This document shows, one piece after another, positions 39,070 to 62,725 of a stretch of DNA of 64,000 bases. Made by a program: the position numbers and the translations under genes. The notes beneath the pieces are model-generated. The model did not search any database. It saw nothing but the letters and a program-made list of their open reading frames with translations, and had not been told where the DNA came from. Position 1 is the first letter of the stretch. Every line of letters begins with the position of its first letter. This stretch comes from Kappaphycus alvarezii (lineage: Eukaryota > Rhodophyta > Florideophyceae > Gigartinales > Solieriaceae): positions 602,646-666,645 of the forward strand of contig NADL03000650.1 in the NCBI GenBank assembly GCA_002205965.3. Reading direction: 5' to 3'.

Positions 39070-39421
39070 TCTGGAAACGGGAGATATTCTTAAAATGAAA
39101 CGGAGAGTCTAGATTAAAAGCAGAATGACAAAAGGGGTTTCGCTTTATGTTAAAACAGATCAGGAGAAGGTGCTTTAGGAAGTCTTTAGGGATGAAATGC
39201 GTTTGGCTAATGGTAGATCCGAAGTGAAGGTTTGCTCGCAGTAGGTATGTACCGCCACGGTTAATCAAAAGTAGACGCCTAGAAAATTTAGTTGAGAATT
39301 GAGTGGCGCAGCTCTTTTCGATACTGTACATTGTTGACATAATTAAGGACAACACGAGTTCCACCCTCTCAAGTTTTCACACAGGATGTATTAAGGAATC
39401 TACCACCAACCACACGTCTAT

Positions 39422-39476
39422 CCACGAACGACACGTGTTTGTCACCCACTTGGATGCAGTACACGAAAGACACGTT
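39422..39476. repeat. 39-bp array module 0 (two units)
   Basis: Cores CCACGAACGACACGTG (39,422) and ACACGAAAGACACGTT (39,461) are spaced exactly 39 bp. Same core and spacing as at the five other modules. Here the CCGGGAG lead of the unit is weak, and the order of the GACACGTG and GACACGTT endings is reversed. It separates family C copy 1 from family A copy 1. Confidence 0.7.
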
Positions 39477-39749
39477 TTCCAAACTCATGGAAATTTTACT
39501 CTAAAACATATTCATTATGTGCTACTGCCGCAGGAGGAGGCTAAATCATTTGAATAGAGCTTAACACTGAACGACAAGCATTTTTTTTCCACCCGGGAGA
39601 CCAAAACGATTCACTATTTTCATCGATTTGGTCAAATCTTGTACGCGGGAACCTCTGCGAATGAAATTTTATTGTATCCTACCGGGAGAAATCCATGAAC
39701 GAAAGAACCCAGAACTTGCCTGCGACTGAGACCATACAATATCCAAGCG

Positions 39750-41627
39750 AAACAAAAATTCTGAGCGTAGTACAGATGCTAGTGCCGAATCGAATTGCCA
39801 CATTATGCCTGAGACGGTTCCTAAGCTTCTTGTACCTAAGGGCGAGGTCTCAACACAAGATGATGACTTAGACAGATATCATCTTCCTTCAGGAAAAAAC
39901 CGCAAAAAGCCCTCTCAGTCACTTCTCCCAGGCCATGCAACTGAACCAGAAACTGAAAAAGGAACAGAAAATGCAGATCACGGTCACCAGAGACAGCAAC
40001 TATACATCGATCAGATGAAATCACTGGTACCTATGAAGAGGCTCAGTCTCGCTCTCATATCAATATCCCTGATGACGAAATCTTCTAAACTTACCTGAAA
40101 CTCGATACAATCTACGAAAACCCTCAGAAAGAGCTCCAACTGAAAAGAAATCAAAGCGGCATAAAGCGTAAACGCAAAAGTTCCCAGCACAAGGAGTACA
40201 TCAATTGCAGAAGAAAGCGAAGGAGAGTGAAGGATATATCCACTCAGGAACATCAGGAATTATGTAGGAAGAAAGCGAATGCGCCCGTAGGAGTGTTTTG
40301 GCCTCCCATGGAGAACTTGAAAAGTTCTCATCCCGTCGGCTCCTAGCGATAGACACGCTATTGAGAATTTACAGGATGCAGAAGACCATTGCCATGCAGC
40401 ATTTTTTGTTGATGAGCAGAACTTACCGGATCTAGAGGCAGCTTTAAAGATTTTGAAAGAGAAACGGTACGAGATATTCTCGCTCACGATTGTCGCCGAC
40501 AAATTATCAAATGATTACCCAATCCCGAGGAAATACTCTTTAAAAGAGAAGTTTTCTTACACGTTACACAACGGAAAAAAGATTGTTCGTCGTGAGACTC
40601 TGTTTCTGAAGGAAGGAGAACATTGTCTACTCGCGAATAGAGAAGATTACCTTTCCAGAAATCCAACGCTAGCAGACATAGAAGCATTTTCGTTGGATCT
40701 ACCCTGGAAGTTATCTCTTCATTTATCAAAATGTGTCGTTATATTCGATTTTACTGAGTTTATGCCTGGTCTCCTCCTTCGGAAAACGTTTCAGCGCAGC
40801 AATGACATGATAAGTCATTTTCTGCGAATCTATGCAGGAAACGATGAGAACAAGGACGAAATGAACTATCTAAATGTCATACGAGAGAAAATACTATCCA
40901 AATGTACCTGTGGTGGGCACGAGATAATTTCCGCAGAGAACGAAAGTACAGTGAATGAATCAGAGTATCCAAATCTGAACAAAGGGCACGATGGACCACC
41001 ATTTCTCTTGAGGCAAGCGCATGATGATAAACTGGAGATGAATGTTTTCACTCACAACAGCATCCTCATCTCGAAAAATTTGAGAAACGAAACTCCTAGT
41101 TTCGTCAATGATAGGGTTAAAATGTGCAAAGTTTCGTATACAGAGTGTGGAACTCGTTTACATGGTGGATTGTTTATGAAAAGATCAGAATATGCCAAGA
41201 TCATGAATCATCCAGGTCAAGAACCGCTTCCTTTGGTGTATCCTGGATCATTTCTCGTGGACCACGGAACTAAGGTTAATTACTTGGAGAACGAGATATC
41301 CCCTTTTGAAATGCGCGATCTGTACATCTCTGGACTAACACATCGAAAGCTCTACTTCTATTGGAATGCCAATAGTGTGGCTTCCATGATCAATGAAGAT
41401 CCCGAAGTCGATATTACTTTTCACCCAGCGTACACAGATGAGCAGTTCCTGGTCAGGTTATACGAAAGGGCGCTGGAGAACTGAAAAAGGACAAAATGGC
41501 TTTGATTTGCGTCCATATCGAACCCGCAAAAATGTCTCTTCTACACAAGAACGGGAAGGAATGCAAGAATTGCGAATCTGTCGAGCTCTTTGGAGATTAC
41601 GGAAATGAATACTCTCATCAATACTAG
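39750..41627 (+). pseudogene. family A gene, copy 1, 5'-truncated
   Basis: Collinear with the C-terminal two thirds of family A copy 2 (from its residue about 570 on). N-terminal part in broken frames: 'GEVSTQDDDLDRYHL', a lysine-rich segment near 40,140-40,230. The main frame (40,453-41,484) holds 'IFSLTIVADKLSNDYPIPRK', 'LKEGEHCLLANREDYLSRNP', 'VIFDFTEFMPGLLLRKTF', 'LSKCTCGGHEIISAENES', 'YPNLNKGHDGPPFLLRQA', 'TECGTRLHGGLFMKRSEYAK' and 'PLPLVYPGSFLVDHGTKVNY'. After a frameshift near 41,470 it ends 'HIEPAKMSLLHKNG', 'CKNCESVELFGDYG' and a TAG at 41,625. The ParB-like N-terminus of copy 2 is missing. Function unknown. The Cys pairs (C-T-C-G-G-H and C-K-N-C) suggest metal binding. Confidence 0.75.
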
Positions 41628-42257
41628 AAGTCTACAGATATGTGGATACCCATATGTGAGACATGTGTAGTGTGGGAGGCTTCTGCTTGCGTTTCTAAAT
41701 GTGCCTGACGGAGGCTTCTTCGCCGAAGGGTATTTAGGGGATTTAGTAAGAAGACGCAGACGACACAATAAGCGAAGACTTTTGACGAAACTTATTCGTT
41801 AAGAATAACTCAGAAATGAAATTTAATTAAACTTAGACCACATCCAGAGTTTAAAGAACGGTAGCTGGGATAATTATTTTGGCTCTTTCCGTCTCCCAAA
41901 ACAATGTATCATCTTTATTTGGACAAAAAACTGTGCACCTTTTTCTTAATAGCCAGCCGTAGTTCACAATAGAATACATTAAACAACCTTTGCTATCCAT
42001 TTCCATTTCTGTAATGAGACAGCCCATCCTCTCTGCAGTTAGCGGCAAACCTGTACGGGTTTTGAGGGATACTATCGATTCAGGGTATGGTACGAGCCTC
42101 CACTATTTCTGCCCGAGACCACTGGCGCACCTTGGCCTTGATGCTATTATCCATCCCAGTAACGATATCGTGGATATGTGGGAGCTGTTAGAAGATAAGT
42201 AAAAGGATAAGAAGACTATGGAGAGGAAGAAGAAAATCTTCTGTTAAATTAAGCTAG

Positions 42258-42377
42258 CACCGGGAGGTAGACACGACTGACACGTTTTAGCCGCCCACCC
42301 GGGAGGTAGACACGACTGACACGTGTATATGTTCCAACCGGGAGGCAAAGCACAGATGACATGTTTTCGAAGGCGGA
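42258..42377. repeat. 39-bp array module 1 (three units)
   Basis: CCGGGAG leads at 42,260, 42,299 and 42,338 (39-bp spacing twice). Units 1 and 2 carry TAGACACGACTGACACGT; unit 1 ends in GTTTT, unit 2 in GTGT; unit 3 is degenerate (CACAGATGACATGT). It is followed by CGAAGGCGGAGGATGCC, shared with module 2. It lies about 630 bp after the family A copy 1 stop. Confidence 0.92.
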
Positions 42378-42399
42378 GGATGCCGATATAGTATCCTTT

Positions 42400-42989: not shown

Positions 42990-45900
42990 ATGTTTTTTAT
43001 TCGCACAACAGGTCAAGGGCGAGGACAGGCATGTTTTGTTCTCTGGTACAAGGACCCAGTTCACCTTCAGGAAGAGAGACGCCCTCCCTCTGTAAATGCG
43101 CTTGATGAACTTCGCAACATGGGAAATGGATTACAAGCTGTGGAAATGATGCTAATGTGGCAGGAGCAAGGCAAAATCAAATTAAATCGTGGCATTGTTC
43201 AGTACGATTGTGAAAAACTTTATTTTGATGACGAGGACGGCTCCAGAAGCTCACTCGAATACCCGGAGTCATTTGTCTCTCAGAATAAGATACTTTTGTC
43301 TCTGAATGAACAGAAGCACGAATACTTTACCAAATTTCGAGTGCCTGTGCTTTCTACCACCGAAATCCATTTCAAAGAAATCAGCGAATTAGATATCTTG
43401 AGTGATGTGTGGCTCGGGGCTTTAGTTGTTTCTCGAGCGAAGATAACTTTATTCATGATATGGAATATTGTGAAAGACTACCCCTACAATCAAAATCCGT
43501 TTACCATGGAGTTTCAGGAGCATCCTCAAAGGGCTACAGAGTCTCGTGAAATTTCAACCAATTTCCTTCTTTTCGTTCCCACAGCAAAACCAATATCGCT
43601 GCAGGAATTCCTTGATAGGGCATCTGAGTCACAGATCAGTGAAAAGGAATCCATGGACATGTTAGAACGATCGTTTCCATTATATGAGGGATACTATGGC
43701 GTGCACGTCCATCGAATTCGACCAAATGTTGAAGATAATTTCCATCACGCAGCTATTCGTTTTGATGACTATGGAGGCACTAAAACAAACGAACTGTGGC
43801 ATGGGCGTATAGATTTCGGTCGCGCGGATACAACTATCGAAAAAATTGGAGTGTCGGAAGAAACGGACCGCGGATATCTATCGTTAGACATGCCCACTTT
43901 ACTGAACTCCGAACACTCTAAGACATCTTCGACTGGGTACGGGGATTGGGGGTTCACTGGATGCATTGAAAACACTGAGGTCTTTATGGTTCCCTATTTG
44001 ATGAGAGATGTGGAGCTCTTTGAGGAAAATAGAAGTAAGATGGCTTTGAAAAATATTAGGCGAAGGATTTTCTCTAGAAACAAACACGTTTACTCATCTC
44101 TTATGCTATCCTCGGTGGACAACAAATACAAGCTCATCTTTAGTGCTCCTGATTGCGAGCATATTCTTAACAGCCTTAAGAATGGTACTGCCCTCAACCC
44201 ATCTAAGATTCAACGAGATTCGTGGTCTCCTTCTAAGTCGGCTCCTAGCTCACAGAAGAAGAGACTGAGGAGTTCTGCATCTAGTCCTGAGGATTTTACT
44301 TTATTGGACGACCCTGGCCTCAGGACCGAAAATGCGAAATGCTCGCTGCCCAAGATTGGCTCTCCGCGGAGAAAAAAGATAAAACATTCAATTGCAGAAG
44401 GTTTATCTCGAAAGACAGATTCACAAACTGGAAAAATTTCCTCTGAAAATGAGCGGATGGAAAATTCATCTCCAAAGCATACATCTTCGCTTGAATCTCA
44501 AGTTCCAGATCGAGATCAGCAATGTGAGATTGAGGAAGATGCCATCTCTCCCCAAATCGATCAGGATTCCTGCTTGAAAGCTGCTGAGAATCAGGAACGT
44601 TCCGCAGAAGCACCTAGAACTCCCCCTCACTTTGCGGAGCAACCCGACATCAATGCCTTTGTGCAGAATCTACAAGTGGAAGAGAGTCGGGCTGCGATGC
44701 CGTTCTCTGTAAAGCTGAGATTACGTCTACACACTCCAAGTCATGAACCAGCTCCAGCAAAAGAAGAGGAAAGTTATATTAATGTCGGAAAAGAGAAAAT
44801 GGATGCCATCATAACCGAAGATCCTCCAAATGATCATGATACTCTCGGTAACTCGTCATTGATTCCTCGCCATGACCAGCAACCTTCTGCTTCTGCTCGA
44901 TCTCTAGAGCCTTATTCACCTTCTTTCCCACAATATCCCAGACTCCAGCACGAGCACTCTGCTCTTGAACAGCAATCTGCTCCCGCTTCAACCCCACAGT
45001 TATCTGCGTCGGTCTCCGTGTTATCACCTCAGGATCCAAGCACCTCCCATGATAACTTTGGCTCCTTGATGTATTCAATACCTGAGCAACAAGCTGAATA
45101 TTCGGCTGGATTTCCGATTTCTCCATCAGCTGATCAATTTGAGGATCAGACGGGAGTCCAATCCTCCTCTCGCGGTGAACCATCACCAGCTGCAAATATC
45201 AAAGACAAGGACGATTATGACAAGGAGAGCAATGATGAATCGGTTTGGATCAATACCACGGACGATTTGAATATTGAAACAATCTCTGCTGCGGAGTTTC
45301 AATCCAGCTTAGAATCCTTTACGCAACGAAATTATAGTTACCAAACAACGTCAACATCTATTGCGCTGATCAAGAGGGCAGTGGAATTGACATCGAACTC
45401 TAACCGCAGCATCATGAAACCAGAGACACTTCCAGCAGCGGTAGAGGGCTTTGATTTACTAGAATTCCCAGTGAGGGGGATTTCTTCGGAGCGTGGTCAG
45501 ATCGCGGCGAATTTCGCGAGGGCTCCCGAGTGAAAATTCAATGGTGGCTCGAAAAGAAGATCTTCACTCCCCAAACCACCAGAAGGGATGAAATGGATGC
45601 ATCATTCGACTGTTGGAATGACTACAGACGATACTGCATGTTCATGGCTCTATATCTTACTTTTGTCGAATTGCTCGATCTGAGCTCCAGGGACCGCACT
45701 TGGTCATTTGACGCGAAAAATGCGCCCCGAGAAGTTTCCGGTGATTATATGAGCTCTGCATTACTAAAAAGTCTCGATAGAGATCCTCACACAAAATGCC
45801 AGACAATTACGATTGAAAAAACCCTACCAAGACTTTCGTCAAGCGAGCACTGCAGAATTCACGATGTCGTCTGCGTAGATATCCTTGTCCCCGACATACA

Positions 45901-47896
45901 TGGTGCTCGGCTGATGTTTTCCGCATTTGGAGTTGTTACATCTCAAGATGTTTCGCCCATAAAACCGCTAAAGGAAGAAGAAACATGTGAATCCTATATT
46001 TCGGTGTTGGGGTGGTCGCGAGAATACTATAAAACATCAACCGAGGTTGTCAGCAGATCAAAATTTGCCTCAGTGCGACGAATTGGGTATGTCGGATCTA
46101 CAATGAGAGCATTTGAGGCGGTGAGAAGTATGATAGATTTCCCTACCGATGTTCGAACGCTGCTCTTGGGGAAAGAAAGAATGAAGGAACCGTCGAAAAT
46201 AGGAAATCAAATAAGAAGTGCTGCCAGAAATGGTCGTGGGGAATATGAAGCCGCAGTACTTCGAAGCTTATGGTTTTTGCGTGATGGACCTCCAGATTAT
46301 ATCTCAAGAATGACTGTCCTTCAAGACGAGTCGCTATCCTCAGAAAACGAAGAGTTTGGATGTTTAAATGCTGGACAAGGAGCAGCAATCGCCGAAACTG
46401 TATCAGCACTTCCATTTCTAGAGAAAAGCCATCTTTCTTCTCGAACAGTTTGTGTTGTCGGACCAGCCGGTACTGGGAAGACGAACACATTAGTTCATTG
46501 TATAGCGGCGATCGGGTCTGTCGCTAAAATTCGAAAGAAATTACTGCAAGGGGAGATGCTCAGAGCTCACGTCCAGAGTCAAAATGCGATGGACGATGTG
46601 GTCTTGAAGAAAGAATTTATTCCTTTGAGAGATGAAGGGGCAATCCTTTGCGTCTGTCCGACCAATTCTGCTGTTGATGTCATTGAGCATAAACTGCAAT
46701 CTGGTATCCCAGTCCGAGCTGAAGACGGAAGTTTGAAGCGCGTTTATCCACTCTATGAACGTGTTACACCAAGTTACTCCATAGGAGACAATTCAGTGAA
46801 TGCTCAGCGCGGAAGGAAACTGAAAAGAAATTTCAAGCGTCTCTTCTCCGGTATGGGACACGAAAACAGAAGTGGCTGGATTGTGTTAACTACGTTTGGG
46901 TCCCTCTACCGAGTTTTCACAAGCAAAAAGAACAGACCAGTTTTTTCTGCAATTTTCGTCGACGAGGCATCACAAGTGAGCGATTTGGACTACATCATTT
47001 TGTTTGAAAATCTTTCCAGGCCATCATCTGACATTCCGCACAATTATGTTCTTTCAATATACGGAGACCCACTCCAACAACCCCCGGTAGTGAAAGGAAG
47101 GCCAACACGATACTCAAATTTGTACAGTCTCTCACTACTAGAAAGAATGATTCCCAGGATGTCTGGAGCCAATATCAGGGGCGAAGACCAGGTATCAAAC
47201 GTAACGTTGGGAATGCAGTACCGCATGAACCCTGTAATAAGCGCCCTTTCGAATAGGATCGCAAATAGGGAGGTCCAATCCGATCCGTGTACGAGCGGTC
47301 GATCTGTCATCGAGCCTCAAGGAGCCACATCTGTGTATTACACGGCTCTGACAGCTAAGGACAGAACGAACCTCCGAAGACAGCTTTTGGCTCATCCCTT
47401 TGTTTTTCTAGATCCATACAGGGAGCAGGGGTTGTCATATCAGGAGCCTTTCTCTCGAGAACAGTCGCATCGGGAAGCAATCATTGTTTCTCGCATCATC
47501 AAAACAGTCTCAATGGAGCCTACTCTGAGAGATGACGATATAATTGTGCTGAGTGTATACGCCAAACAATTGAAGTGTTTGAAAGAGGTGGTAGGAAGGG
47601 AGCTACAGCAGAGTAGGGGCGAGATTGAAATATCTAACAATATCAAATTCTCGACAATTGCTGGGGTACAAGGGGCAGAAGCAAAAGTAGTCATCTTCTC
47701 AGCAACGAGAAGGAGAAGGAATCTTTCAACAGGGGTGCGATGCGGTGATGGAATCGGACTTGTCGGTGATTTGAAGACAATCTATGTGATGGTAACTAGA
47801 GCAAGTTGTCATTTATATATTGTCGGCGATGCAGAGTTGCTTTCGGTGTGCAGTAACCATTGGAAGAAGATCTTGGATTTTGCAAGATCCAATTGA
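42990..47896 (+). CDS. family B gene, copy 1: UPF1-like superfamily 1 helicase with unique N-domain (one frameshift)
   Basis: About 1,635 residues once one missing base near 45,460 is allowed for. The ATG at 42,990 is chosen because copy 3 has its ATG (60,296) at the same place. N-domain, residues about 1-390: 'CFVLWYKDP', 'LSDVWLGALVVS', 'TNFLLFVPTAKP', 'FPLYEGYYGVHV', 'FDDYGGTKTNELWHGRIDFG', 'GYLSLDMPTLLNS', 'GYGDWGFTGCIENTEVFMVP'. Low-complexity Ser/Pro/Glu segment, about 400-760. Middle domain, about 800-1,100: 'KIQWWL', 'WNDYRRYCMFMALYL', 'HDVVCVDILVPD'. Helicase: 'GPAGTGKT' (Walker A, 46,460), 'IFVDEASQ' (Walker B, about 46,957), 'GDPLQQPP' (47,063), 'GMQYRMNP', 'GVQGAEAKVVIFSATR', 'VMVTRA' (about 47,791). 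This motif set is SF1B, nearest UPF1/SMUBP2/Senataxin. All ATPase residues are intact. Likely ATP-driven 5'-3' unwinding; the N-domain has no known counterpart that I recognise. Confidence 0.88.
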
Positions 47897-48344
47897 CTAG
47901 CATGACATGTAGAGCAGTGGTGTACAATATTTATTGTAAGATTCATTTCGTAACTGAAAATCACAAAATTTGAAGCAATATTCCCGTAGAGCCCATACTA
48001 CTGAGTAGGGTTGGAATATGATGGATGCCAAGAATATGCGATGAATGTGTTTGCTAGCGATACGTATGAGAGATAAACACGCAAACTTTTGCTTTGAGAT
48101 GGGTATCTCAAAATTTGGGATTTTGTTTGCAATTGAGAAATATTTTACGGAGGCCTACATGTGTTTTAGCCGAAGGTTGGTTCAGAGCTTTCCGACGTGT
48201 GTTCGAAAAAGAGAGCACACCTTTGCCTTGATGCTATTAAGGCCCGCTGTGTACTTGAAACCTTATGAAGACTGTAAGAAGAGAAGAAGAGGAGAAGAAG
48301 ACGATGGAAAAGAAGAAGAAAACCCTCTGTTAAAGTCTAGCTCG

Positions 48345-48468
48345 CACCGGGAGCTAGACACGACTGACACGTTTTAGCTGCCTAGGCGGGAGATAGACAC
48401 GACTGACACGTGTGGACCTCCAACCGGTAGACAAAGCACAGACGACATGTTTTCGAAGGCGGAGGATG
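48345..48468. repeat. 39-bp array module 2 (three units)
   Basis: Leads at 48,347 (CCGGGAG), 48,386 (GCGGGAG) and 48,424 (CCGGTAG), spacing 39 and 38. Cores are TAGACACGACTGACACGT in units 1 and 2. It ends in the same CGAAGGCGGAGGATGCC as module 1, although module 1 follows an A gene and this one follows a B gene. It lies about 450 bp after the B copy 1 stop. Confidence 0.92.
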
Positions 48469-48910: not shown

Positions 48911-49950
48911 TTAATTCCTGAAGTAATCCTCGGTATCACACCCAATTTCAGAAGATATTTTTTTTAAAAGGGCATAGTTCTGAGCAGACTTTCGTTGAAT
49001 AGCCGCGAGATCATTCTTTGCATATGAAAAGGACGCACTGATCTTCAAGTTTTCATCCGCTCTTTCGAAAAAAATTCCACTCCACTGTTCTGGAGAACGA
49101 TAAGGGTAGAACGGTAGCTCTTCAGCCTTAAACGGTAGGAGATTGATATAGACATACGAATCACGCAAGTAGCAACCGTAATTGCTGGAACCAGCGTATC
49201 CAGAGGCCTCGCGCTTGCTTGAGAGTACAAAATGCTCATTGATGACAATCCTTGACTGATTTTGGTTTCCTAGTAGCTCGTTTTCTCCTTTCGTTAGAAA
49301 AGACTGTAAATTAGCTTTTCTCTTTGTCCATTAGATGTAGAACTTAGGTTTGTGGGTCATACTCCACTGGATTACCCTTTTCGCACACTGCAAAACCCAC
49401 GTATAAGAGAGTAAACCCAGAAACTCCCGGGAACACTCTGACGAAATCTATGGTTTCCACCGTTTCCTGTCTAGTATTTGCGCTAACCAAGTTTGCAATA
49501 CTCGAGGCTTGGATAGAGGCCACCACACTAAGAATAAGTTACTAAGGCTTCTGTCAGAGGATTCTGTATCGGCGGGCACATTGACCCTTTTCAGCTTTTC
49601 CTCCCTGTTACAATGTCCATGTATCTGGAAGTTGTATCGTATAATGTAACAATAAGAGCACCAATCCACTCTTTAACAAGCAATCTCGACGCGATATTCT
49701 TCTGGATGCTTGAAGTTACAGGATTCTTCATTTTAAACGAACCTTCTTCATAAATTGGAACGTAAGCCAGAACCCCTTTTCTTTTCCCGCTCTCCTCAAT
49801 AGATTTGTTGATTTTGTCATGATTAAATACCAGTTCATAGACCTCACCACTTGTAGAGTGGAAGCTAACTGCATCATCAACCTTAGTCCTTACACAGGTT
49901 CCGTGTTTAATTTTTTGGTGAGAGGTATTGCTTAACCTTCTCGGAATCAT
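48911..49950 (-). pseudogene. family C gene, copy 2, 5'-truncated
   Basis: Collinear with copy 1: 'FHSTSGEVYELVF', 'GKRKGVLAYVPIYEEGSFKM', 'VKEWIGALIVTLYDTTSRYM', 'LSNLFLVWWPLSKPRVLQTW', 'VETIDFVRVFPGVSGF', then beyond the point where copy 1 ends: 'LTKGENELLGNQNQSRIVIN', 'REASGYAGSSNYGCYLRDSY', 'FYPYRSPEQWSGIFFERADE' and a stop at 48,911. The block G-Y-x(5)-Y/F-x-G-C parallels 'GYGDWGFTGC' in family B, which extends the link between the families. Frame changes at about 49,600, 49,500 and 49,330. The N-terminal ~90 residues are missing; at about 49,940 the sequence switches head-to-head into family B copy 2. Confidence 0.65.
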
Positions 49951-52900
49951 TCGTTCCGCACAATAAGACCCTCATATCCCTCGATGAACAGATGCATATT
50001 AAAGTGCCCATCTATCGAGTGCCCCTGCTGTCCTCCACCGACATTACATTCGAAACAATTGGTGGAGTACATAATTTGAGCGATGCATGGATTGGTGCTT
50101 TAGTTGTCTCGAGGGTGAAAGTTACTGTTTTCATGATTTGGAACATTTTGAACAATGCTCCATTCATCCATAATCCCTTCACTTTGGAGTTTGAAGAAAA
50201 CTTACACCGAGCAAGAGAGTCAGGTAATACCTCAGCAAACTTCCTTGTCTTCATTCCGACGGCCAAGCCCAAATCCCTCCAAGAGTTTCTCGACAAAGCC
50301 TCTGGGACTGGAGTAGATGATGAGAAGGTAATGGAAATGCTTGAGACCTCCCTCCCATTATTCGAGGGATACTGCAAAGTTCATATTGGTCAAATTCGGA
50401 AGGATAAAGAAGAGCCCTTCCACCATGTCAATGTTCGCTTTGATGACTATGGGGGTACAAAGAAGAATGAGAAATGGATGGGGCGTGTCGACTTTGGGCG
50501 TGAAGATGAAACATTGCAGGGAATTGGTGTTCCTAAAGAAGCGGAGCGGGGGTATCTCTCTCTGGATATGCCCACTTTGATAAATTCTGTTCATTGCGAG
50601 ACATCTTCCGTTGGGCATGGAGACTGGGGATTTACAGGCTGTATTGAAAACACTGAAGTCTTTATGATTCCTCACTCCATAAAAAATGAAGATGTCTTCG
50701 AGCAAAATAGGAGCAGGAATGTGCTGAAAACCTCGAAGTACAGATCAAACCCCCGAACCCGGGACGTTTACAAGGGGCTAATGATGTCTTCGGTTGACAA
50801 CAAGTACAAGCTTGTAAATAACATTCCTAACTTCGACGACATTATTCATGATCTCATGAGGGGTGAAGTTTCTGCAGTGGCAGGAAAAAGGGAACGAGAT
50901 AGGAATCCCACACAGTGCGATGATGAGGCCAGAAACTACGAAGAAAGACCTTCAAAGAGGCCTCGTACCTCGCTCGTTGCAACTGAGCAAGAGAACTCGG
51001 ACTTCGATGAATTGGCTCGCAAACCTCCACCGATTCCGCAGTTTCAACTTCTTCACGAACACGATATCACTGAGGGTATTCGAGACGTCCAGAACCCGAA
51101 CCCTGTGGATGTATCCATTCCAAACAACTCTGAGGCTGCAGAACGAGACCAGGCAGAGCCTCTGAACCAGGTCCAAGAAGAAGTATTGTCAATCCCACCT
51201 TCACCGGATACCTCACCATTAAATGCTGCAACGCCCTCAGCTCCCCCAGAAAATCAATCACAGCGTCGAAATGGGGCCAATGCTCAAATTGGAACTCACT
51301 CTCTTCCCCACTCTCCACTATCTCCAGGAGCTATGCAATATCAAAACATTTCTCAAGGGCCGGAAAACCAATCGCTGCCTCAAAATGAATTCAATGCTCA
51401 AACTGGAACTCGCTCCCTTACCCACTCCATTATCTCCAGGAGCTATGCAATATCAAAACATTTCTCAGGGGCCGGAAAATCAATCGCTGCCTCAAAATGA
51501 ATCCAATGCTCAAACTGGAACTCGCTCCCTTACCCACTCTCCACTATCTCCAGGAGCTATGCAAAATCAAAATATTTCTCAGGGGCCTCATCTTAGTCCA
51601 TCTTTAGAAAACCTGCCATCATTGAAGAATGACACAGATGCTCAAGAAAGACTCATCCCCTCGGGAAACGGATTCTCATCCAATTCTTTCTCGAGAAGGA
51701 AGAACACTGTCCGCAGCTGTCATGGAAAACCCGCCTTCATCCAAGAATAATGTTGATTCTGGCTCAAATCAGAACCATGGGCAAGGTAATGAGGTCGATA
51801 AGAATGCAGAAGAAAAATCTGATGAGTCTCTATCGACGATACCCAGTGGCGATTTGAGCGTTACTGAAGTACCTGAAACACAGTTCAGAACAATTCTAGA
51901 TTCTTTCACAAGGCCGGGATCCTGCAGAGGGGGCAGCTCACTCTCTGGAGAGCTTCTCAAGAAGAGCGATGAGCTGTATGCTAGCTCAAAACGAAGGATA
52001 ATGAGGTCAGACGAAATTCCTGCTAGAGTGGAGGGCACAGATATACTCAGCATATATGAAGATGTTGCCTTCCTCGGAGAATGGTGTCGCCGTAACGAAT
52101 TCCGGGAAAGTGCTCGCAACAAAGTTCAGTGGTGGCTACGAGACAGGATCGAACTAACTCGGAATCCAAGATTTGATGTTACACCCGTGGCATTTAATTC
52201 GTGGGGAGACTATCGCAGATATTGCATATTTATGGCAATATATCTGATCTATGTCGAGTTGTATGACATAAGCTCTCTAGAGAAGACTTGGGCCTTTGAT
52301 ACGCAGAATGCGCCTATGGGAGTTTCTCCTAATTCCCTGAGCTCGGCAATGGTGAAACATTTCTATACGGATCAAAGTGGATGCGATACCCTCATTATTG
52401 AGAGGACTGGAAGACGTCAGTCTTCTGGTCTCCACTGCCTTTACGATGTGGTCTGCGTGGATTTCTTAGTGCCACGAGACTATACCGTAGAACGAAAGCG
52501 ATCTGGCTTTGGGTATGTATTTCAACAAACCGTTACTCCCATAAAGCCGTATAAGGTGGAGGAGTTCTGCGAGTCGCAAATCGTGATCATGGGATGGTCC
52601 AGAGGCTCGCCACAAGGGCCACAGCAGCAAATCAATGGGGAATTTGTTTCTGTGCGAAAAGTTGGATATATAGGGTCCTCTATCAGAGCTTTCGAGGCAG
52701 CCCTACGACTGGAAAACTTACCTTCTGAAGTAAGAGGTCTCTTAATGGGACATGATGCTATCAGAGATACGCGCAGGATTGGAGAGCACGTTAGAAAGGC
52801 TGGGGAGCTTGGACGCCTTGAATATAACGTAGCTCTGCTTCAGAGCTTGTGGTTTTTGCGAGATGGACCCGCAGATTACATCTCAAGAATCACTGTCTTT

Positions 52901-54470
52901 CCCGACGAGCCATTGTCTCTCGAAAACAATGAATTCGGGTGCCTCAATACCGGACAAGGTGCAGCGATTGCCGAAGTTGTCTCCGCACTTCCGTTTAAGG
53001 AACGGAGTTCTATTTTTACCAGAACAACATGTGTCGTTGGACCAGCTGGGACCGGTAAAACAAACACATTAGTCCATTGCATTTCGGCAATTGCAAACCT
53101 ACTGAAGATTCGCCATCGACTGCTGTATGGAGAGAATATTAGAAGGTCATTGCAGGGGCCAAGAGGAGCTAGGACCGGTATTTTGAAAGAGGCATTCCTT
53201 CCCTTGAAACAGGAAGCTGGAATCCTTTGCATCTGTCCTACAAACTCTGCTGTTGATGTTATTGAGGAAAAATTGCAGTCTGGAATCGCAGTTTCGCTGG
53301 AAGAAGGAGGGTTGAAGCGCGTGTACCCCCTGTATGAGCGTGTTACACCATCGCTTTATGATGAAGACAGGGTTATGAGCTCTAAGCGATCTAAAGATCT
53401 CCACGGGAATTTTAAGCGACTCTTTTCAGGTCTAGGGTACGAGAACAAGTCCGGTGGATTACACTTACTACTTTCGGATCACTTCATCGCCTGTTTGAAA
53501 GGAAAAAGCACAACCCCCGTTTCTCGGCTGTATTTATCGACGAAGCATCTCAGGTGGGTCGTTTGGATCTCAACATGATGTTTGACACACTTCCCGGTCC
53601 GAATTACGATATTCCGCAAAATTTCATCCTGGCTTTTTTCGGTGACCCGCTTCAGCAAGGAACCGTTGTGAAGGGAGATCGAACGCCTTTTTCAACTTTG
53701 TACACCGTTAGCCTTCTGGAGACAATGGTCCCGAGGATGGCCGGATATTACATCGATGGTGAGGACCAAGTTTCAAATGTTATGCTCGGAGTCCAATATA
53801 GAATGAATCCATGCATAAGCGCCCTATCAAATAAGGTGGCAAGAAGGGAGGTACAGTCCGCTCCATGCACAATTGACAGAGCGGTCATTCGTACCCGCGG
53901 CTCTCAGACCTTATTCTATCCTGAGCTGACGGCCTCTGAAGATTCGCCGATTGATAGAAGCTTGTTGGCTCACCCAGTGGTGTTTTTTGATCCGTACCAC
54001 CAGCATGGTCTGTCCTTTCAGGAGCATTACTCTCGTGAGACATCAAATAGAGAGGCAATTGTTGTTTCTCGGATAATCAAAACTCTTTCTGCGGAGCCGG
54101 GATTCAGAGATGAAGATGTCTTTGTACTGAGTGTGTATGGAAGGCAATTGGCCTCTTTGAAAAGGGTGGTAGGCGAGCAGCTGCAGCGGTATAGGGGTGA
54201 TCTGTCTGTAAGCAACAAGATCAGGTTCTCGACAATCGCTGGGGTGCAAGGGGGAGAGGCTAAGGTAGTGATATTTTCTGCCACAAGAAGCAGAAAGAAT
54301 CTCCTACAGGGAGTAAGACGGGATGACAGCATCGGACTTGTTGGAGATGTGAGGGAATCTATGTCATGCTGACAAGAGCAAGCTGTCATTTGTACATAGT
54401 CGGAGATAGCGAAATTTTATCAGCCTGCAGTCGCGAGTGGAATTCCATTATAAATTTTATCGCTGCATAG
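49942..54470 (+). pseudogene. family B gene, copy 2: helicase, 5'-truncated and frameshifted
   Basis: Homology to copy 1 starts inside the N-domain at 'SESFVPHNKTLISLDEQM' (about 49,942), so the first ~90 residues and the start codon are gone. N-domain follows: 'LSDAWIGALVVS', 'SANFLVFIPTAKP', 'LPLFEGYCKVHI', 'GRVDFGREDET', 'GHGDWGFTGCIENTEVFMIP'. Low-complexity segment with a 114-bp repeat (51,282-51,590). Middle domain: 'NKVQWWLRD', 'WGDYRRYCIFMAIYL', 'YDVVCVDFLVPR'. Helicase: 'GPAGTGKT' (about 53,039), 'VFIDEASQ' (read in the frame after a missing base near 53,453), 'FFGDPLQQG', 'GVQYRMNP', 'GVQGGEAKVVIFSATR', and in a last frame 'VMLTRASCHLYIVGDSEI', ending at TAG 54,468. ATPase motifs are intact in sequence, but the gene has three or more frame changes (51,420, 53,453, 54,360). 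Confidence 0.82.
51282..51590 (+). repeat. 114-bp coding minisatellite in the linker of family B copy 2
   Basis: Units start at 51,282, 51,396 and 51,508 with GCTCAAA(T/C)TGGAACTC. Each encodes a 38-residue block beginning 'AQTGTRSLTHSPLSPGAMQY'. The second unit is 112 bp because two bases are missing in CACTC(TC)CA near 51,421, and that shifts the frame. The third unit is partial. Copies 1 and 3 of family B lack this repeat. Confidence 0.9.
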
Positions 54471-54830: not shown

Positions 54831-55130
54831 ATAAAATTTCGTTCAATATTCTCCTATAGACTATAATACCGCGTAGAGTTCTGTGGCCGTTGCTCCGAGA
54901 AGGGGGAAGAGTAAAATTACATTGACATAACTGTATCCGGGCGCAGGATCTAGTAATATTGTTTCATTTCCAACCGGAGAGTGTGTCGGCAATACGTATA
55001 CAGGATAAGCACTCAGACGCGACTTGGCCTTGACGTTGGTATTAAGGGTGGCGGCGAAGTTTGAAAGGTGTGAAGGTTTTTAGAAGAGAAGAAAGGGGGA
55101 AGAAGAGGAGACTCTTCCGTCAAAGTCAAG

Positions 55131-55210
55131 TTCGCACCGGGATTTAAACACGAATGACACGTTTTTATCTCCCACCCGGGAGCTAGCCACGGATCATACG
55201 TGTCATTTTT
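55131..55210. repeat. 39-bp array module 3 (two units)
   Basis: CCGGGA leads at 55,137 and 55,176 (39-bp spacing). Unit 1 core AAACACGAATGACACGT; unit 2 core is worn (GCCACGGATCATACGTGT). About 110 bp before it is the GACTTGGCCTTGACG string also found before modules 1 and 5. Confidence 0.85.
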
Positions 55211-55582: not shown

Positions 55583-58500
55583 ATGAACTTGAACCCATCA
55601 ACTAAACCGTTTTTTGTCCTCGTACAATTTGAAAAGTTGGTTCAGTTGGCACAGCGATCTACTCCTGGTCTTCTTCGTGGTGTTTCATCGAATCAATCGA
55701 AGTGATCAAGGAGTCTATGGAAAACAGTTTCTCATCAGAAAAGTTTGGAAGGCCCACCCTCAATTTCAGAAGTGATGTGAGAGAATTCAAAGGTTTGTTG
55801 GTGACATGCGAAGGAAACGAAGGAAACGAGTTCATTTTGCAGGGCTCTATTCCAGGAACAGACATCTTGCCTCGTATGGCATTCAACAACAAAACTTTAC
55901 TTGAGAAGATTGACTTTATTGATGGAAGGCATAGAACACTTGCGGCCAAAGAAGCATTTCCTGATTTTTCGACTGCAAATTGCCTGGTCATCTGTGAGAT
56001 TACTAATATGTATTCGTACGAAGAAATGAAGCAATATGGTTATCAACATTCGCAAGGGGCGGCGACTGTCGAGAACTGCTTTATAGATGTTTTTGGCTCG
56101 GTACGAAAAGACCTGACAAATGGTGAATTTTCCAACATTTGTAAGAGGAAATACGGCATCAAGTCATCTTCAGCGCTAGAAAACCTGACTAAGTTGCGAA
56201 AAGTTCTCTTTGAGAGCTCTTGTCATATTATTAGCATGAAAAGGTCATCCCGTTTGTTTTCCACAGAGGTTGTTGCTAAAAAAGTGTGCGGAAGTTTGTG
56301 TCATTGATGACAGAGTTTGGGACCCTCCAGTTTAGGAATACTCGCTATTCCTATCGTGATTTGTTGACATACAAGCAATTGGAAGTTAAGGAACATGTGC
56401 AGAATATGTTGGTGTGTGTGTCCAGTTGTTTGATGGAAAGTGTAGAGGATTTTGCGCCTGCTCGTTTGCTTAACCTTGTCGCTTCTTCTGCATTCGAAGC
56501 GCTAAATGAAAAAAATCATCCAGTAATCAGGGGTCAAGTGGGTATTTCTGTATTCCGAATGATACAGAAGGTATCCGCTGAGCTGAATGTTGACCTTCGA
56601 AAGATTAGCGATATTCTTCGTGACTCGAAGGATTTCTGTGTGGCTGAGAGCCCTATCTTCAAAATTGGTAACGAAATCACATCTGGACTAATTGAAGGTA
56701 TTGAATATTCCACTTCTAGCTCCTCGGCTGAATCTTTTCACTCTAATGGTTTATTAAGTTCGAAAGGTCGGATCCAGTCCTGAATGAACCCGCGGTCGTT
56801 CCTATAGAAAATCACACCCTCCCCGAGACAAAAAGTAGAAACGACTCTGCGAAATGCATGAAGATCCAGCTTCAGGAGCGGACTCGTTTCACATCGAGAG
56901 GAGAGAAGGTGATGGAGGCAAAAAGAAGAAAGATGTAGGTTTTGTGGTATTTGTGAGAGTGAGGTAGAAAAAAGCCAACCTCACCGGAGCCGAAGCTGTG
57001 ACGAAAGCTCAGCTTTAAAAGGGACAGAAAAGACCACAGTGGAAGCTGGCCCTCAGAGTACTATCGTAGGTACAGCCGAACCTCCGAAACTGTTTGGAAT
57101 CTCCGAGAATGGTTTGAAAATCTCCAAGTCTAATTCGAACATGGACGAAATTATGCTTGAGGGAAATTGCAGGGGTAGAGATCGATATTTGTGTGGACAA
57201 AGAAAGGATCCAACGAGACACGCGGATCTTGTCTCCGAACATGAACCTGGAAAATCCAGGAGAAGCAACATTTCCGGGTCTAGTAGGGATGCAATTATTG
57301 AATCAGATGACCAGAGTATAGATCAGAAGGTTCCTAAGCATCACGTTTCTGGGGCTGAAGTATCAACAGATGATGATGCATGCCAGTACTATCTTCAGTT
57401 ACAAAAGAACCGCAAAAATCCACCACTGATCATCCTCCCCGGATATGCACCTGACCCTGAAGTCGCAAAGAATAGCAATGAGATTTTGGATCAAAGATCA
57501 TCAAAGATAACTACTACTCAGAGCTCAATTGAAATCAATTTTAATGATGAAGATGATCTAGGAACTTTTTCTGAGCCTAGCTCTCAAATTAATATCTGTG
57601 ATGATGAAACCCCTCAAGACGTTTCTGAAGCCCGATATAACCTTCGGAAAAGCTCGGAAAGGATTTCAACCGAAAAGGAATCAAAAAACCGTGTGAATCG
57701 TAAGCGCAAAAATTCCAAGGATACTGGGGATATCGATTGCAGCAGCAAACGAAGGAAGCTGTCGAAGAAATCTAGTCATGAACTACAGGAGGTATACACG
57801 AGGAGAGCGAAATGCGCCAGGAGGTGTGTATTAGCTTCGCATTATGAGCTGGAAAAGTTTTCATCTCGTCGGTTCTTAGCAGATAGAAACTTGGTCGAAA
57901 ATTTACAGGAAGCACAAGACCATCGTCAGGTAGCATTTTTCGTTGATGAGCCGAACCTATGGGGTCTGGAGAATGCATTGGAAAATTTGAAAGAGAAAGG
58001 ATACAAAGTCTTCTCACTGACGATCGTCTCCGACAAATTATCAAATGATTTCGTGGTCCCGAAGAAAATCTCGTTACGAAAAAAATTTGTATACACGTTA
58101 CGCAAGGGAAGAAGGGTTATTCGTCGTGAGACTGTGTTTTTGAAGGAGGGGGAAAAATGTTTGCTAGCGAACAGAGAAGATATCCTCCGACGAAATCCAA
58201 CCTTAGCAGATGTAGAAGATTATTCTTTCGTATCTACCCTGAGCGTTATCTCATCGTTGGCAAAAAGGAATATTGTTATAATTGACTTCACTCAGTGTAT
58301 GCCTGGACTTCTCCTTAGAAAACGATTCAGCTCAGTAATGACCTAGTAGGTCAGTTTCTAAGAATATATGCTGGAAACGATGAGAACAAAGACGAAATAC
58401 AGTATTTGGATGTCATTAGGGAGAAAATACTATCGAAATGTAACTGTGGTGGACACGCGATAATTACCGAAGAGAACGAAGATTCCTTGAATGAATCAGA

Positions 58501-59163
58501 GTACCCAAACGTGAACAAAGGGCACGATGGACCCACATTTCTCTTGAGACAGGCGGGCGAAGATCAGCTTGAAATGAATGTGTTTGTTCACAACAGCATC
58601 CTAATCTCTAAGAATTTGAAGAACGAAACCCCTAGCTTCGTGAATGATGGGGAGAAAATGTGCAGAGTTTCGCATACAGAGTGCGGAACTCGTTTGCATG
58701 GTGGATTGTTCATGAAATGCTCGGAATATTCTAGGATTATAAATCATCCTGATCAAGAGCCGCTTCCTCTGGTGTATCCTGGGTCTTTCCTTGTCGACTA
58801 CGGAACCAAGGTTAACTATTTGGAAAACGAGATATCCCCATTTGAGATGAGCGATCTTTACATCTCTGGACTGACACATCGGAAGCTCTACTTCTACTGG
58901 AATACTAACAGTGTAGCTTCAATGGTCAATGAAGATCCAGAAACTGAATTACCTTCCATCCTGCATATACTGACGAACAGTTTCTGATCAGGTTGTATGA
59001 GAAGGGTGCGGGAGAATTGAAAAAGGAAAAAATGGCTTTGGTCTGCCTCCATATCGAACCCGCAAAAATGTCTCTTCTGAACAAGAAAGGAAGGAAATGC
59101 GAGAATTGTGATTCAGTGGAGCTATTTGGTCACTACGGAGGCGAATATTCTCATCGATACTAG
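55583..59163 (+). CDS. family A gene, copy 2: ParB-like/HTH N-terminus, zinc knuckle, conserved C-domain (frameshifted)
   Basis: About 1,190 residues if the frame changes near 55,690, 56,280, 56,770, 56,925, 58,340 and 58,960 are allowed for. Start ATG 55,583 ('MNLNPSTKPFFVLVQFEKL'). N-terminal domain: 'LLEKIDFIDGRHRTLAAKEA' (55,890-), the G-x-x-R/H-R-x-x-A pattern of ParB/DGQHR-type domains, then 'TNGEFSNICKRKYGIKSSSA' and 'ENLTKLRKVLFES', which fits the helix-turn-helix that follows in ParB. A zinc knuckle C-x2-C-x9-H-x4-C at 56,943-57,002 ('CGICESEVE'). A lysine-rich nuclear-localisation-like patch 'RKRKN' / 'SSKRRKLSKKSS' (about 57,700-57,770). C-domain: 'VAFFVDEPNLWGLENALENL', 'NIVIIDFTQCMPGLL', 'CNCGGHAI', 'GTRLHGGLFMKCSEY', and terminal 'HIEPAKMSLLNKKG', 'CENCDSVELFG'. 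No named family for the C-domain. DNA binding is inferred. Confidence 0.72.
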
Positions 59164-59440
59164 AAAATTATAGGTATTGGGATACTGGGATTGTAATATG
59201 ATAAAAGCTCCTGGACGTAGGAGGGAAACGCTGTTTTTAGGGAAAACCTTAGTTTAGAGACTGGTACCACATATGCAACGCTAGAAGGCATGTGCTGTAA
59301 CTATCGCCCATCGGAGCTGATGAGTAAAGGCAAGCCAGCAATGACCTGTGCCATTGTTCGTGGATTTTTTATGAGTAATGTTAGAGGAGAAGGATTAGGG
59401 AAGGAAATGAAAGTGCAAGAAGAAGAACTAGCATCGAATT

Positions 59441-59575
59441 CAGGCTCGCACCGGGAGCTGTACACGAATGACACGTTTTTAGCGCCCACCCGGGAGCTTG
59501 CCACGAAAGACACGTGTAAGTCACCGAGCTGGGAGCCTTACACGACGGGCTTGATCGCGAAGGTGAGGCGGAACA
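59441..59575. repeat. 39-bp array module 4 (three units)
   Basis: Leads at 59,451 (CCGGGAG), 59,490 (CCGGGAG) and 59,529 (CTGGGAG), spacing 39 and 39. Cores TACACGAATGACACGT, GCCACGAAAGACACGTGT and a worn third. It lies about 290 bp after the family A copy 2 stop and is followed by GCGAAGGTGAGGCGG, a variant of the string that follows modules 1 and 2. Confidence 0.92.
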
Positions 59576-59744: not shown

Positions 59745-60295
59745 ACACAGGTCGACCCCTGCAATTATTTCCCTCAACACACGGCCCGTCCAGCTGAGCA
59801 ACCAGTTTTAAAGTTTTATCACACAACCAATCCTGAAAAAATCGAAAATCGCCACATGTTTGCACATCCGTCCAGGTCAAAAAACGTTCTCCCCCATTTT
59901 TCCACAATTTTGAAAGGGAAGTTCTCACTCTATTTTGGAAATTTGATTACGAAAAGAATCACATCTCATCAAGAGGGGAAGAAACTTAGTTGTTTCACAT
60001 AAATACCATTACTTGTGAATTGCAAACCCTACCAGTCCGGCCAGTTTCGGAACCCGACTGCTGCAGTAACCCCGGTCACTATATTTTGCTTATCTGGCTG
60101 ACTCCTTATTTGCATTAGATGATCGCATCTCAATCACGCTTTCAACCTATCAATCAATATTCAGCTAATTTATCTTCTCCAATTTTAACATTCTCGCTTG
60201 ATTAGTCTCATCAGTAACTTGGCATTCTGTTACTGTTCTCAAGAAAGACTTTCCGACAAGAAACGAACTTCGAATTCCACACATAACATTTTGCA
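59745..60295 (+). promoter_or_regulatory. 5' leader of family B copy 3, shared with copy 1
   Basis: Resembles the leader of copy 1 (42,590-42,740) in order and spacing of short blocks around CCCGTCCAGCTGAGCAACCA and CATCCGTCCAGGTCAAAAAA. No other copy is seen in front of copy 2, whose 5' end is lost. Confidence 0.5.
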
Positions 60296-62169
60296 ATGTT
60301 TTGTAACCGCCAAAATGATCAAGGAAGTTGGGAGCCATGTTTTGTTATCTGGTATAAGGACCCAATCATGTTCAGGAAGAAAGACGCCCTCCCTCTGTAA
60401 ATGCGCTCGATGAACTTCGTAACTTGGGAAATGGTGTCCAGGCTGTAGAGATGATGGCATTTTGGAGGGAAGAAAGCAGAATCAAAGTATCTCATGGTCT
60501 TCTGCAGTACGAATACGGAAAACTACATTTTGATGATAATTGCGGATTGAGGCACTCACTAGGGTACCCGGACTTATTTGTTCCCCAGAATAAGTTCATT
60601 TTATCTCTAAATGACCAGAAACACATTGACTGCACCAAGTTCCGAGTTCCTGTGCTATCTGCCAAAGAAATTCGTTTCAAAGAAATCGAGGACTTAGGAA
60701 TCTGAGCGACGCATGGCTTGGGGCTCTAGTTGTTTCTCGGGCGAAAATAACTCTTTTCATGATTATGAATATTGTGAAAAATTGGCCATACACTGAAAAT
60801 CCATTTACAATGGAGTCTTGCGAACATCCTCAAAGGGTTACAGAGTCCAGTGAAATGTCAACCCATTTCCTTCTTTTTGTTCCAACGGCGAAGCCAAAAT
60901 TACTGCAGGAATTCCTTGACAGTGCATCTGTGTCACGAATTAATGAAAAGGAATCCTTGGACATGCTACAACGCTCCTTTCCGTTGCATGAGGGCTACTA
61001 CGGAGTTCATGTCCACCGAATTAGACGAGATATTGAAGAGAAATGTTATGAAGCAACTGTTCGGTTTGATGACTACGGAGGCTCAAAAGAAAAAGAACTT
61101 TGGCATGGGCGTATAGACTTTGGTCGTACGGATGGGACAATCCAAAAACTTGGCGTGCCAGAAGAAAAAGAACGTGGATATCTATCTCTGGACATGCCAA
61201 CTTTGCTCAATTCCAAACACTCCAAGACATCATGTATTGGGTTCGGAGATTGGGGATTCACCGGTTGCATTGAAAATACCGAGGTTTTTATGGTTCCTTA
61301 CAAGATGAAAAATGAAGAGCTTTTGGAGCAAAATCGCAGTAGGGGTACCATGAAATATAGAAGAAGAAGGATTTTGTCCAGACACGAACCAGTTTACGCA
61401 TCTCTCAATCTTTCGTCGGTGGATAACAAGTACAAACTCATCAAAGAATATCCGGATTTCGAGGAAATACTTCAAAATATAAAATATGATAATCAGCACA
61501 GTCCGAGAAGAGTCATAGAGATACAGGGTCTATTAGCTCACTTGATACGAGAATGGATCAGGTAGCAACAATTGATCAGGTTGCATCTAATCCTACACCC
61601 CAGCTTTCCGTGAAGCTAAGATTGCCTCTTCATTCCCCGAAAAAGAGCAGGTGGGTCAAGAAACAGCACAAAAGAGCTTTGGGAAAATTGAAAAAAACAA
61701 GATTGGTCACTTAACAACGGAGCAACATCAAAATAACCAAGATGGCATTCCTGAAACTCTAGCGCCTCCTCAAACTAGCGAAAAACCTGCTTGCGACTGT
61801 GATGCCATCCTTCCCAGGGCGTCGCCTCTTGAAACTAACGCGCATTCTTTCTCTGCTTCTCGGCTTCAAGTAATGGAGTCCAATCCTTCTCTTGCCGCAC
61901 TTCCCGAAGGTCACGCCATCCAGCATTGTACTATTGCAGGTTCTACTGGACAAGAACTACGACCTTCCTCTACACCTCACTCACCACCACCTACCCTCAA
62001 TTTATCGATATCCCCACCACCAGTGAGCTCTATTCATAACCAAACTGGTGCTTCAGTGTCCCTACCGCCCCTTCACCTGGCAATATCTTATACTGACAGA
62101 AATTATTGGGAGAAAGTCTGGTGCTTTGCAGTAGAAGCCGAAAAATCTGTATGGAGGAAAGGAAATTGA
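60296..62169 (+). pseudogene. family B gene, copy 3: N-domain and linker only, helicase deleted
   Basis: The ATG at 60,296 opens 'MFCNRQNDQG' and 'CFVIWYKDP', as in copy 1. N-domain: 'VNALDELRNLGNGVQAVEMM', 'FRVPVLSAKEI', 'LSDAWLGALVVS' (after a shift near 60,700), 'THFLLFVPTAKP', 'FPLHEGYYGVHV', 'HGRIDFGRTDGT', 'GFGDWGFTGCIENTEVFMVP'. Linker: 'SVKLRLPLHSP' as in copy 1, then a Ser/Pro-rich segment ending at 62,169. Middle and helicase domains are absent; about 110 bp later the sequence resumes at the very last codons of a B gene (62,285). Frame changes at about 60,370, 60,700 and 61,570. The product, if any, would be an N-domain-linker protein. Confidence 0.8.
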
Positions 62170-62284
62170 GGAAAACGATAAGACACATAACACAAATTAT
62201 GATTCTCCAATCTCAAGAAATGAAAATACCCGGATAGCAGGTGCATAAATTGTAAAACAGCAATCAGAAAAAAATTCCCGAATC

Positions 62285-62345
62285 CGTAACCATTGGAAGA
62301 ATGTCCTGTAGACAATACATGTAGACTAGTGGTTGCCACCTCTTA
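62285..62345 (+). pseudogene. remnant of a family B 3' end after the deletion
   Basis: CGTAACCATTGGAAGAATGT corresponds to AGTAACCATTGGAAGAAGAT at the end of copy 1 (47,854-47,873). The following ACATGTAGACTAGTGGTTG matches the bases after the copy 1 stop. This marks the right side of the internal deletion in copy 3. Confidence 0.75.
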
Positions 62346-62647
62346 TTTTACGAAACTGTATCGAACTAAAAAAACGCAATTCCTCGAGGCAAATTCGCTA
62401 TTAGATTCTGTAGTAGTGCATAGATTTGGAGTAAGAGTTCCAGAGGAAGGGGAGGTACTGGCAATTTCTAGGATTATTGTGTCATTTCCAACTAGAGAAG
62501 ATTTTTCGGCGATATACATGAAGGATACGCACTTAAATGCGACTTGGCCTTGACGATGATACTAATGACGGCGACGAGGTGGAAACATTTCAGGGTTGTT
62601 GGAAGCGAAGGAAGGGGGAAGAATAGGAAATATACCATTAAACACAA

Positions 62648-62725
62648 GTTGCACCGGGAAGTAAACACGAATGACACGTTTTTTATCCCCAACCGGGAGC
62701 TTGCCACATGACACGTGTAATGAAA
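62648..62725. repeat. 39-bp array module 5 (two units), last before the telomere
   Basis: Leads at 62,654 (CCGGGAA) and 62,693 (CCGGGAG), spacing 39. Cores AAACACGAATGACACGT and GCCACATGACACGTGT. It is preceded by GACTTGGCCTTGACG (about 62,540-62,555), as in module 3. About 145 bp of unique sequence lie between it and the telomere array. Confidence 0.9.

Follow-up and report, generated by a model that had tools for sequence, protein, structure and literature searches.

In fungi, telomere-linked RecQ helicase genes are a case of helicase genes forming chromosome-end families, and in yeast the STAR and core X sequences are short protein-binding elements which partition subtelomeric chromatin and are not known to be present once per gene gap. 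In the VSG arrays of Trypanosoma brucei, a 70-bp repeat beside the VSG genes is described as a tested recombination element (PMC4858185). The SPE2 element of Plasmodium falciparum is described upstream of upsB var genes and in TARE2/3, with binding by PfSIP2 in vivo only at the chromosome-end domains (PMC2829057). Among red algae, Cyanidiophyceae have near-telomere regions of 20–30 kb which are conserved between the chromosomes of one species (PMC9812998). Here we analyze an array of genes and short repeat modules in the red alga Kappaphycus alvarezii. The analyzed stretch of 64,000 nucleotides, referred to as the window, comprises the final 64 kb of contig C646 (666,645 bases), so that contig end and window end coincide. 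The array makes up the final ~25 kb of the chromosome and consists of genes of three families, A, B and C, and of modules built from 39-bp units, located just inward of the telomere repeats. All genome searches were done in the window's own assembly (336 Mb, 884 contigs, eukaryote).

By analogy of layout, the trypanosome VSG arrays and the Plasmodium SPE2 arrays appear to be the nearest known designs. The initial annotation of the window knew of no described system with this combination; this was too strong, since VSG arrays and SPE2/var loci share the main features. As with VSG, the arrays are located at chromosome ends, short runs of a conserved repeat stand beside genes (silent ones in the case of VSG) and copying is duplicative; unlike VSG arrays as described in that source, most junctions in the red algal arrays avoid the modules, tail-to-tail gaps hold modules and the genes are unrelated, B encoding a superfamily 1 (SF1) helicase and A and C matching no Pfam family (PMC4858185). 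With SPE2 as with the modules, short conserved motifs stand in tandem and in a single orientation next to chromosome-end genes; unlike SPE2 as presented in that account, a module is present in each gap of the best array whatever the gene direction, including two tail-to-tail gaps in which it is not upstream of a gene start, and its binding protein is hypothetical (PMC2829057). Duplicated genes in shared subtelomeric regions are common to the Cyanidiophyceae and our arrays; the gene families differ, and the excerpted description of the former includes no conserved inter-gene module (PMC9812998). What is new here is a subtelomeric system in which an uncharacterised SF1-helicase family is combined with orphan families and no gap of the best array lacks an element. 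Helicase genes forming chromosome-end families are a feature shared with the fungal telomere-linked RecQ genes, and an OrsD/RecQ-type gene is located distally in contigs C686 and C493; B, unlike the fungal genes, is not of the RecQ type, its product being an SF1 helicase that has an orphan domain at the N-terminus. A short element in the subtelomere is also the likeness to yeast STAR and core X.

A repeat finder confirmed six modules of 39-bp units at 39.4, 42.3, 48.3, 55.1, 59.5 and 62.65 kb, as annotated initially, with starts at 39,418, 42,267, 48,354, 55,144, 59,458 and about 62,660. The start-to-start spacings of 2849, 6087, 6790, 4314 and 3203 bp agree with the earlier values. The gene content assigned to the cassettes in between, one A or B gene each and an additional antisense C gene in the third, also held: the order is A, then B, then an antisense C together with a B, then A, and lastly a B that lacks the helicase part. 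The start of the array had to be corrected to 38,194: the block shared with other contigs already starts within one more antisense C gene, which precedes module 1 on the proximal side. In C686, C467, C782, C846, C721 and C165 this C gene runs on for 337 bp past the 38,194 border. The features of the array are located as follows (window positions):

38194..39075, minus strand: C1 gene, 3' end lost at 38,194, the border between chromosome-specific sequence and the shared block
39413..39480, plus strand: module 1, the most diverged one, in the head-to-head gap of C1 and A1; profile matches at 39419-39455 and 39460-39478
39564-39599: degenerate extra unit beside module 1
39730..41649, plus strand: A1 gene (short form), matching the latter half of A2; small indels interrupt its frame in the window
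41731..41748, plus strand: short interstitial telomere-like stretch downstream of A1
42251..42345, plus strand: module 2, between A1 and B1, tandem
42990..47896, plus strand: B1 gene, with orphan N-terminal domain, low-complexity linker and SF1 helicase; split over two overlapping frames in the window
48340..48432, plus strand: module 3, between B1 and C2, tail-to-tail
48911..49916, minus strand: C2 gene, lacking its 5' end, since 1.7 kb present in C686 are deleted at 49,916
49916..54468, plus strand: B2 gene, 5' end lost by the same 1.7-kb deletion at 49,916
55130..55205, plus strand: module 4, between B2 and A2, tandem
55590..59161, plus strand: A2 gene (long form)
59440..59536, plus strand: module 5, between A2 and B3, tandem
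60296..62169, plus strand: B3 gene, consisting of just the N-terminal part; no helicase was found
62646..62722, plus strand: module 6, between B3 and, in C686, B4
62869..62870, no strand: telomere-addition junction, from the junction alignment; C686 carries 18 kb more sequence instead
62870..64000, plus strand: telomere repeat of irregular sequence, chiefly (A)TTTAGGGG / ATTAGGGG / TTTTAGGGG, extending as far as the contig end

The rule linking modules and genes is clearest in contig C686. Sorting the entered coordinates of profile, alignment and frame features gave, from inside outwards, the order module-B0-module-C1-module-A1-module-B1-module-C2-module-B2-module-A2-module-B3-module-B4. Nine modules alternate with nine genes: all 8 gaps are filled and the ninth module is located inward of B0. 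Since the C genes are reversed, gaps of every relative orientation occur, two being head-to-head (C1/A1, C2/B2), two tail-to-tail (B0/C1, B1/C2) and the remainder tandem. That each of these gaps holds a module irrespective of orientation bears out the proposal of the initial annotation that the module is a property of the array and not of one gene's untranslated region. A palindromic variant, built of TAGACACGTGTCTA and TCCCGnnCGGGA and hardly detected by the 39-bp profile, makes up the two innermost modules; one of them occupies the tail-to-tail gap B0/C1 (C686:45373-45489). The remaining seven modules share one polarity despite the reversed C genes, and the module between C2 and B2 consists of one unit at E 1.6e-5 plus weaker pieces. 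Modules were also sampled beside A genes on further contigs, with C644, C563, C210 and C483 outside the sampled set; in the samples from C494, C586 and C94 modules adjoin A genes.

We determined the conservation of the module with a profile trained on seven units of modules 1–5, module 6 being outside the training set. In all six modules the best unit scored 27–39 bits, while the best score in 200 first-order random sequences of the array's dinucleotide make-up was 12.7 bits. Leave-one-out profiles recovered every left-out module, module 1 at E 3e-4 and the others at 3e-7 to 1e-10. Among the outside matches in the window, of which there are at least the up to three listed per profile, a weak unit-like stretch at 39,564 reached E 0.002–0.04 and the rest E 0.04 or worse. 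The conserved stretch is in fact longer than 39 bp: a CTTGGCCTTGATG-like string and an AG-rich tract upstream are common to modules 2, 3, 4 and 6. Over 75-bp cores, modules 2–6 are mutually 75–90% alike. The modules following A1 and A2 (modules 2 and 5) are 86% alike as compared to a synonymous divergence (dS) of 0.87 between A1 and A2, and those following B1 and B2 (modules 3 and 4) are 78% alike as compared to a dS of 2.4, which is near saturation, for the helicase part. The blastn alignment of A1 and A2 ends just beyond the stop codons and most of the remaining spacer is unalignable. The module is thus better conserved than its surroundings, and its likeness is kept by either selection or conversion.

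Single-strand folding was compared to shuffled sequences. Three of the six modules fold better (z −2.7, −3.6 and −3.0) and the others gave −1.2, 0.2 and 1.2. In a consensus fold of the five window modules without module 1 plus two modules of C493, none of 11 pairs showed two-sided change, and a Rfam scan of the window at gathering scores gave no match. An RNA structure in the module, which we had considered, was not supported, given a folding signal in three of six modules and no covarying pair among 11. An integron-like arrangement of a recombinase and folded exchange sites is not seen either: no recombinase was matched in A, B or C, and the covariation result is the same.

Relatives of A were found on at least 17 contigs (49 rows), a lower bound from scoring 36 of 150 first-look candidates. 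On all 15 contigs longer than 90 kb they are directed towards a contig end no more than 45 kb away; C375 and C563 (<40 kb) are too short to judge the end position. Telomere repeats are present at the relevant end in 5 of the 17 contigs (C646, C493, C711, C94 and C210), C586 begins in Ns, and none were detected at the examined ends of C686, C846, C782, C721, C467, C165, C483 and C644. The contigs without telomere repeats at the end may simply break off inside the array. The portion from 38,194 to 49,916 recurs as a whole on C686 and partly on C782, C846, C721, C467, C375 and C165, long matches being 95.8–99.8% identical; the portion from 49,916 to 62,871 has counterparts in C686 (99.1% identical) and in C493 (about 90%). 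Samples taken inward (~10 and 50 kb) on C686, C467, C782 and C846 showed no mutual similarity, each consisting of one 0.8–2.5-kb piece per contig and depth, such that a shifted allele could escape. The array is a subtelomeric multigene array with near-identical blocks on non-allelic ends.

These results answer the checks proposed with the initial annotation. The subtelomeric location of the cassettes is supported by the 15 contigs above, cassette order varies between ends (C493, for example, is without B1 and C2), and a single locus with local tandem duplication is excluded by the relatives on many contig ends. Scattering of modules over the whole genome is opposed by the genome-wide module search, in which 19 of 19 matches fell in 9 contigs, all with A relatives, as far as a lower-bound search can tell: profile scans added modules in C494, C586 and C94.

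The B1 gene carries the Pfam domains AAA_12 (E=3.5e-25) and AAA_11 (E=6e-9), which identifies it as an SF1 helicase; comparison to an IGHMBP2-type model gave E=1.6e-18, under the model's cut-off score. One relative of the helicase was found among 7991 scored candidates (P0006, E=1e-6, 25% identity) and one in a second protein search (P0020, E=1.2e-44, 31% identity). Against solved structures, B matched four helicase chains (best E 8.6e-7), C gave one match at E 0.21 and A none. No Pfam family was matched by A or C; for A, residues 140–1298 had no relative among 5185 candidate proteins, and no library searched yielded anything. Profile comparison of C with the N-terminal part of B gave E=1.7e-4 with 30% identity over 163 columns at a HHalign probability of only 50%, and judging from this alignment C is probably a distant relative of that part. 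Predicted structures were unusable, with a mean predicted local distance difference test score (pLDDT) of 33.7 for the B N-terminal/C domain (six-row alignment) and 35.0 for part of A2 (single sequence). A DGRHR-containing motif was seen by eye only in the N-terminal part of A2, with no Pfam match up to E 10. The idea of a ParB-like A protein acting on CACGTG palindromes was dropped as it had no profile support.

In C686 the stop-to-stop frames of A2, B2 and C2 are unbroken over 1298, 1681 and 432 codons, and A1 has a 635-codon open frame in C846; A1 is 75% identical in DNA to window positions 57251-59185 of A2. Ratios of nonsynonymous to synonymous divergence (dN/dS) between paralogues are 0.23 for A (633 codons), 0.19 for C (410) and 0.15 for the B helicase (810), and these genes are under purifying selection. 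Several frames are broken in the window copy. Over 24.8 kb, window and C686 differ by 35 substitutions (about 0.14%) and 110 gap characters, including 54 single-base indels, of which 31 are in homopolymers of two or more. Part of the frame breakage may therefore be assembly error. The linker of B2 additionally contains a three-copy tandem repeat (window 51249-51587, consensus period 112), which corresponds to a repeat of 38 residues in the C686 open frame.

We also assessed where copies of the array part from each other. Ten junctions were collected:

38,194, 49,916 and 62,869 of the window; C493, between A1 and B2; C493, near its position 6712
C467 and C165, shared deletion (counted once); C375, left; C375, right; C711, between B2 and module 4; C686 and C165, telomere-like insertion (counted once)

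Seven of the ten lie at least 150 bp from any profile match on the sides examined, two are inside modules and one is in a degenerate unit; this tally is small and partly selected, the last two junctions listed having been found while inspecting modules and telomere-like stretches, and no significance is claimed. Profile matches cover 1.2–2.0% of the C686 array and 1.4–1.8% of the window array. In C711 a deletion has brought B2 up against the final unit of module 4 (read by eye), and C467 and C165 have a deletion in common whose left end is in the degenerate unit by module 1 (profile E 4.8). In C686 and C165 the palindromic module carries a 17-bp telomere-like insertion with an 8-bp duplication (GTACACGT). 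The matching palindromic module of C94 (L034:1511) is uninterrupted, suggesting the direction of change. Telomere-like insertions at repaired breaks have been described for mammals (PMC2246262). The telomere-like 17-bp stretches in the palindromic module are located as follows:

L013:9645-9665, minus strand
L022:859-880 and about 466-485, plus strand

Telomere-like stretches also occur away from modules, namely downstream of A1, both in the window and on seven other contigs, as well as in L025 of C94, and, in reversed orientation, at the A1/B2 deletion junction of C493 (L015:8149-8170). Telomere addition itself is seen at window position 62,869, about 150 bp beyond module 6, and in C493, where the frame with the RecQ match runs into the repeats.

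Outside the array, the distal OrsD/RecQ-type gene matches OrsD in P0009 (E=3.2e-7) and RecQ in P0010 (E=1.2e-7, 76 of 470 profile positions); the frames come from two contigs which are 98.8% identical over 4.7 kb. It is located as follows, the C493 frame being the one which runs into telomere repeats:

L009:3-2630, minus strand
L014:975-4454, minus strand

The distal 18 kb of C686 also contain a 488-codon frame (L010:3442-4905, plus strand) whose likeness to a ubiquitin-type cysteine peptidase was noted by eye only; it had no Pfam match up to E 1. The chromosome-specific part of the window holds a pyridoxal-phosphate (PLP) enzyme gene at 5774-7005, in two overlapping frames which match adjoining parts of one profile with no intron-sized gap between them, and a match to the RPN6 N-terminal part at 29428-29961.

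Our tentative explanation, to which we give close to an even chance, is that the module is a conserved boundary or regulatory element inside blocks which are copied between chromosome ends and trimmed by breakage and telomere addition. Multi-gene blocks with their modules do recur on different contig ends, and ends have been cut back and capped with telomere repeats; ectopic copying between ends by conversion or break-induced replication would account for the recurrence. A sequence-specific, perhaps dimeric, protein may bind the ACACG / ACACGTGT and CCCGGG-like motifs, and the bound module could act as a chromatin boundary or as a shared regulatory element for chromosome-end genes, being present in each new copy through block copying and not by mobility of its own. 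The position of the module between neighboring genes in any orientation is what suggests boundary or control function. Several observations weigh against it: the profile scan found no module distal to B4 in C686; the C711 sample contained one half-module only; module 1 is only 63–69% alike to the others, and the modules preceding A1 and A2 (modules 1 and 4) only 67%; the likeness of the remaining modules could stem from conversion between them; the confinement to A-bearing contigs comes from a lower-bound search; and modules may be hit by junctions more often than their share of length. If the module were instead a promoter element of each gene, as with SPE2, one would expect it at gene starts, and 7 of the 9 C686 modules do adjoin at least one; the two tail-to-tail gaps without a gene start nevertheless hold modules (module 3 and C686:45373-45489), and we regard a promoter as unlikely.

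The initial annotation saw in the cassette a unit of duplication, exchange or insertion, and a module serving as a recombination, breakage or insertion site where cassettes are exchanged, added or lost, in the manner of the trypanosome 70-bp repeats or of the attC sites of integrons, would fit the gene-module-gene periodicity, the joining of B2 to the last unit of module 4 in C711, the palindromic module split by a telomere-like insertion, the deletion of C467 and C165 starting in the degenerate unit, and the better folding of three modules as single strands. Most of this proposal is not supported by our data, as copies are collinear multi-gene blocks and seven of the ten junctions are clear of modules; the consensus fold without two-sided changes and the missing recombinase match among A, B and C proteins point the same way, and we consider such a site rather improbable. 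A narrower variant is that modules are preferred sites of breakage, with cutting or fork stalling at the ACACGTGT palindrome, telomere capping, and trimming or rejoining there, which would work like the chromosome-breakage sequences of ciliates. It is suggested by the insertion with the 8-bp duplication in C686 and C165, by the deletions ending in module 4 and starting in the degenerate unit, and by the window telomere beginning shortly past module 6; we nonetheless rate it as very unlikely. The junction of C467 and C165 raises both of these explanations and slightly lowers those of a boundary and of a promoter. Plain duplication, with modules as neutral intergenic remnants carried along with the genes, seems a poor candidate: the arrays clearly grew by duplication and block copying, but modules 2–6 have remained 75–90% alike at gene dS values of 0.6–2.4 while most other spacer is unalignable. 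Least of all do we expect A, B, C and modules to be a transposable element or endogenous virus which targets ends and has the modules as termini. Copy number, end-specificity, helicase genes and the OrsD/RecQ-type and unidentified genes further out would agree with it; the proteins scanned include no reverse transcriptase, transposase or capsid family, A and C have no relatives in viral contigs, and the alignments show no unit with fixed ends.

If modules were sites of breakage and capping, chromosome ends would have built-in release points between genes. The array is well suited for testing whether genes in chromosome-end arrays have to be separated by boundary elements, and how such arrays spread and get trimmed.

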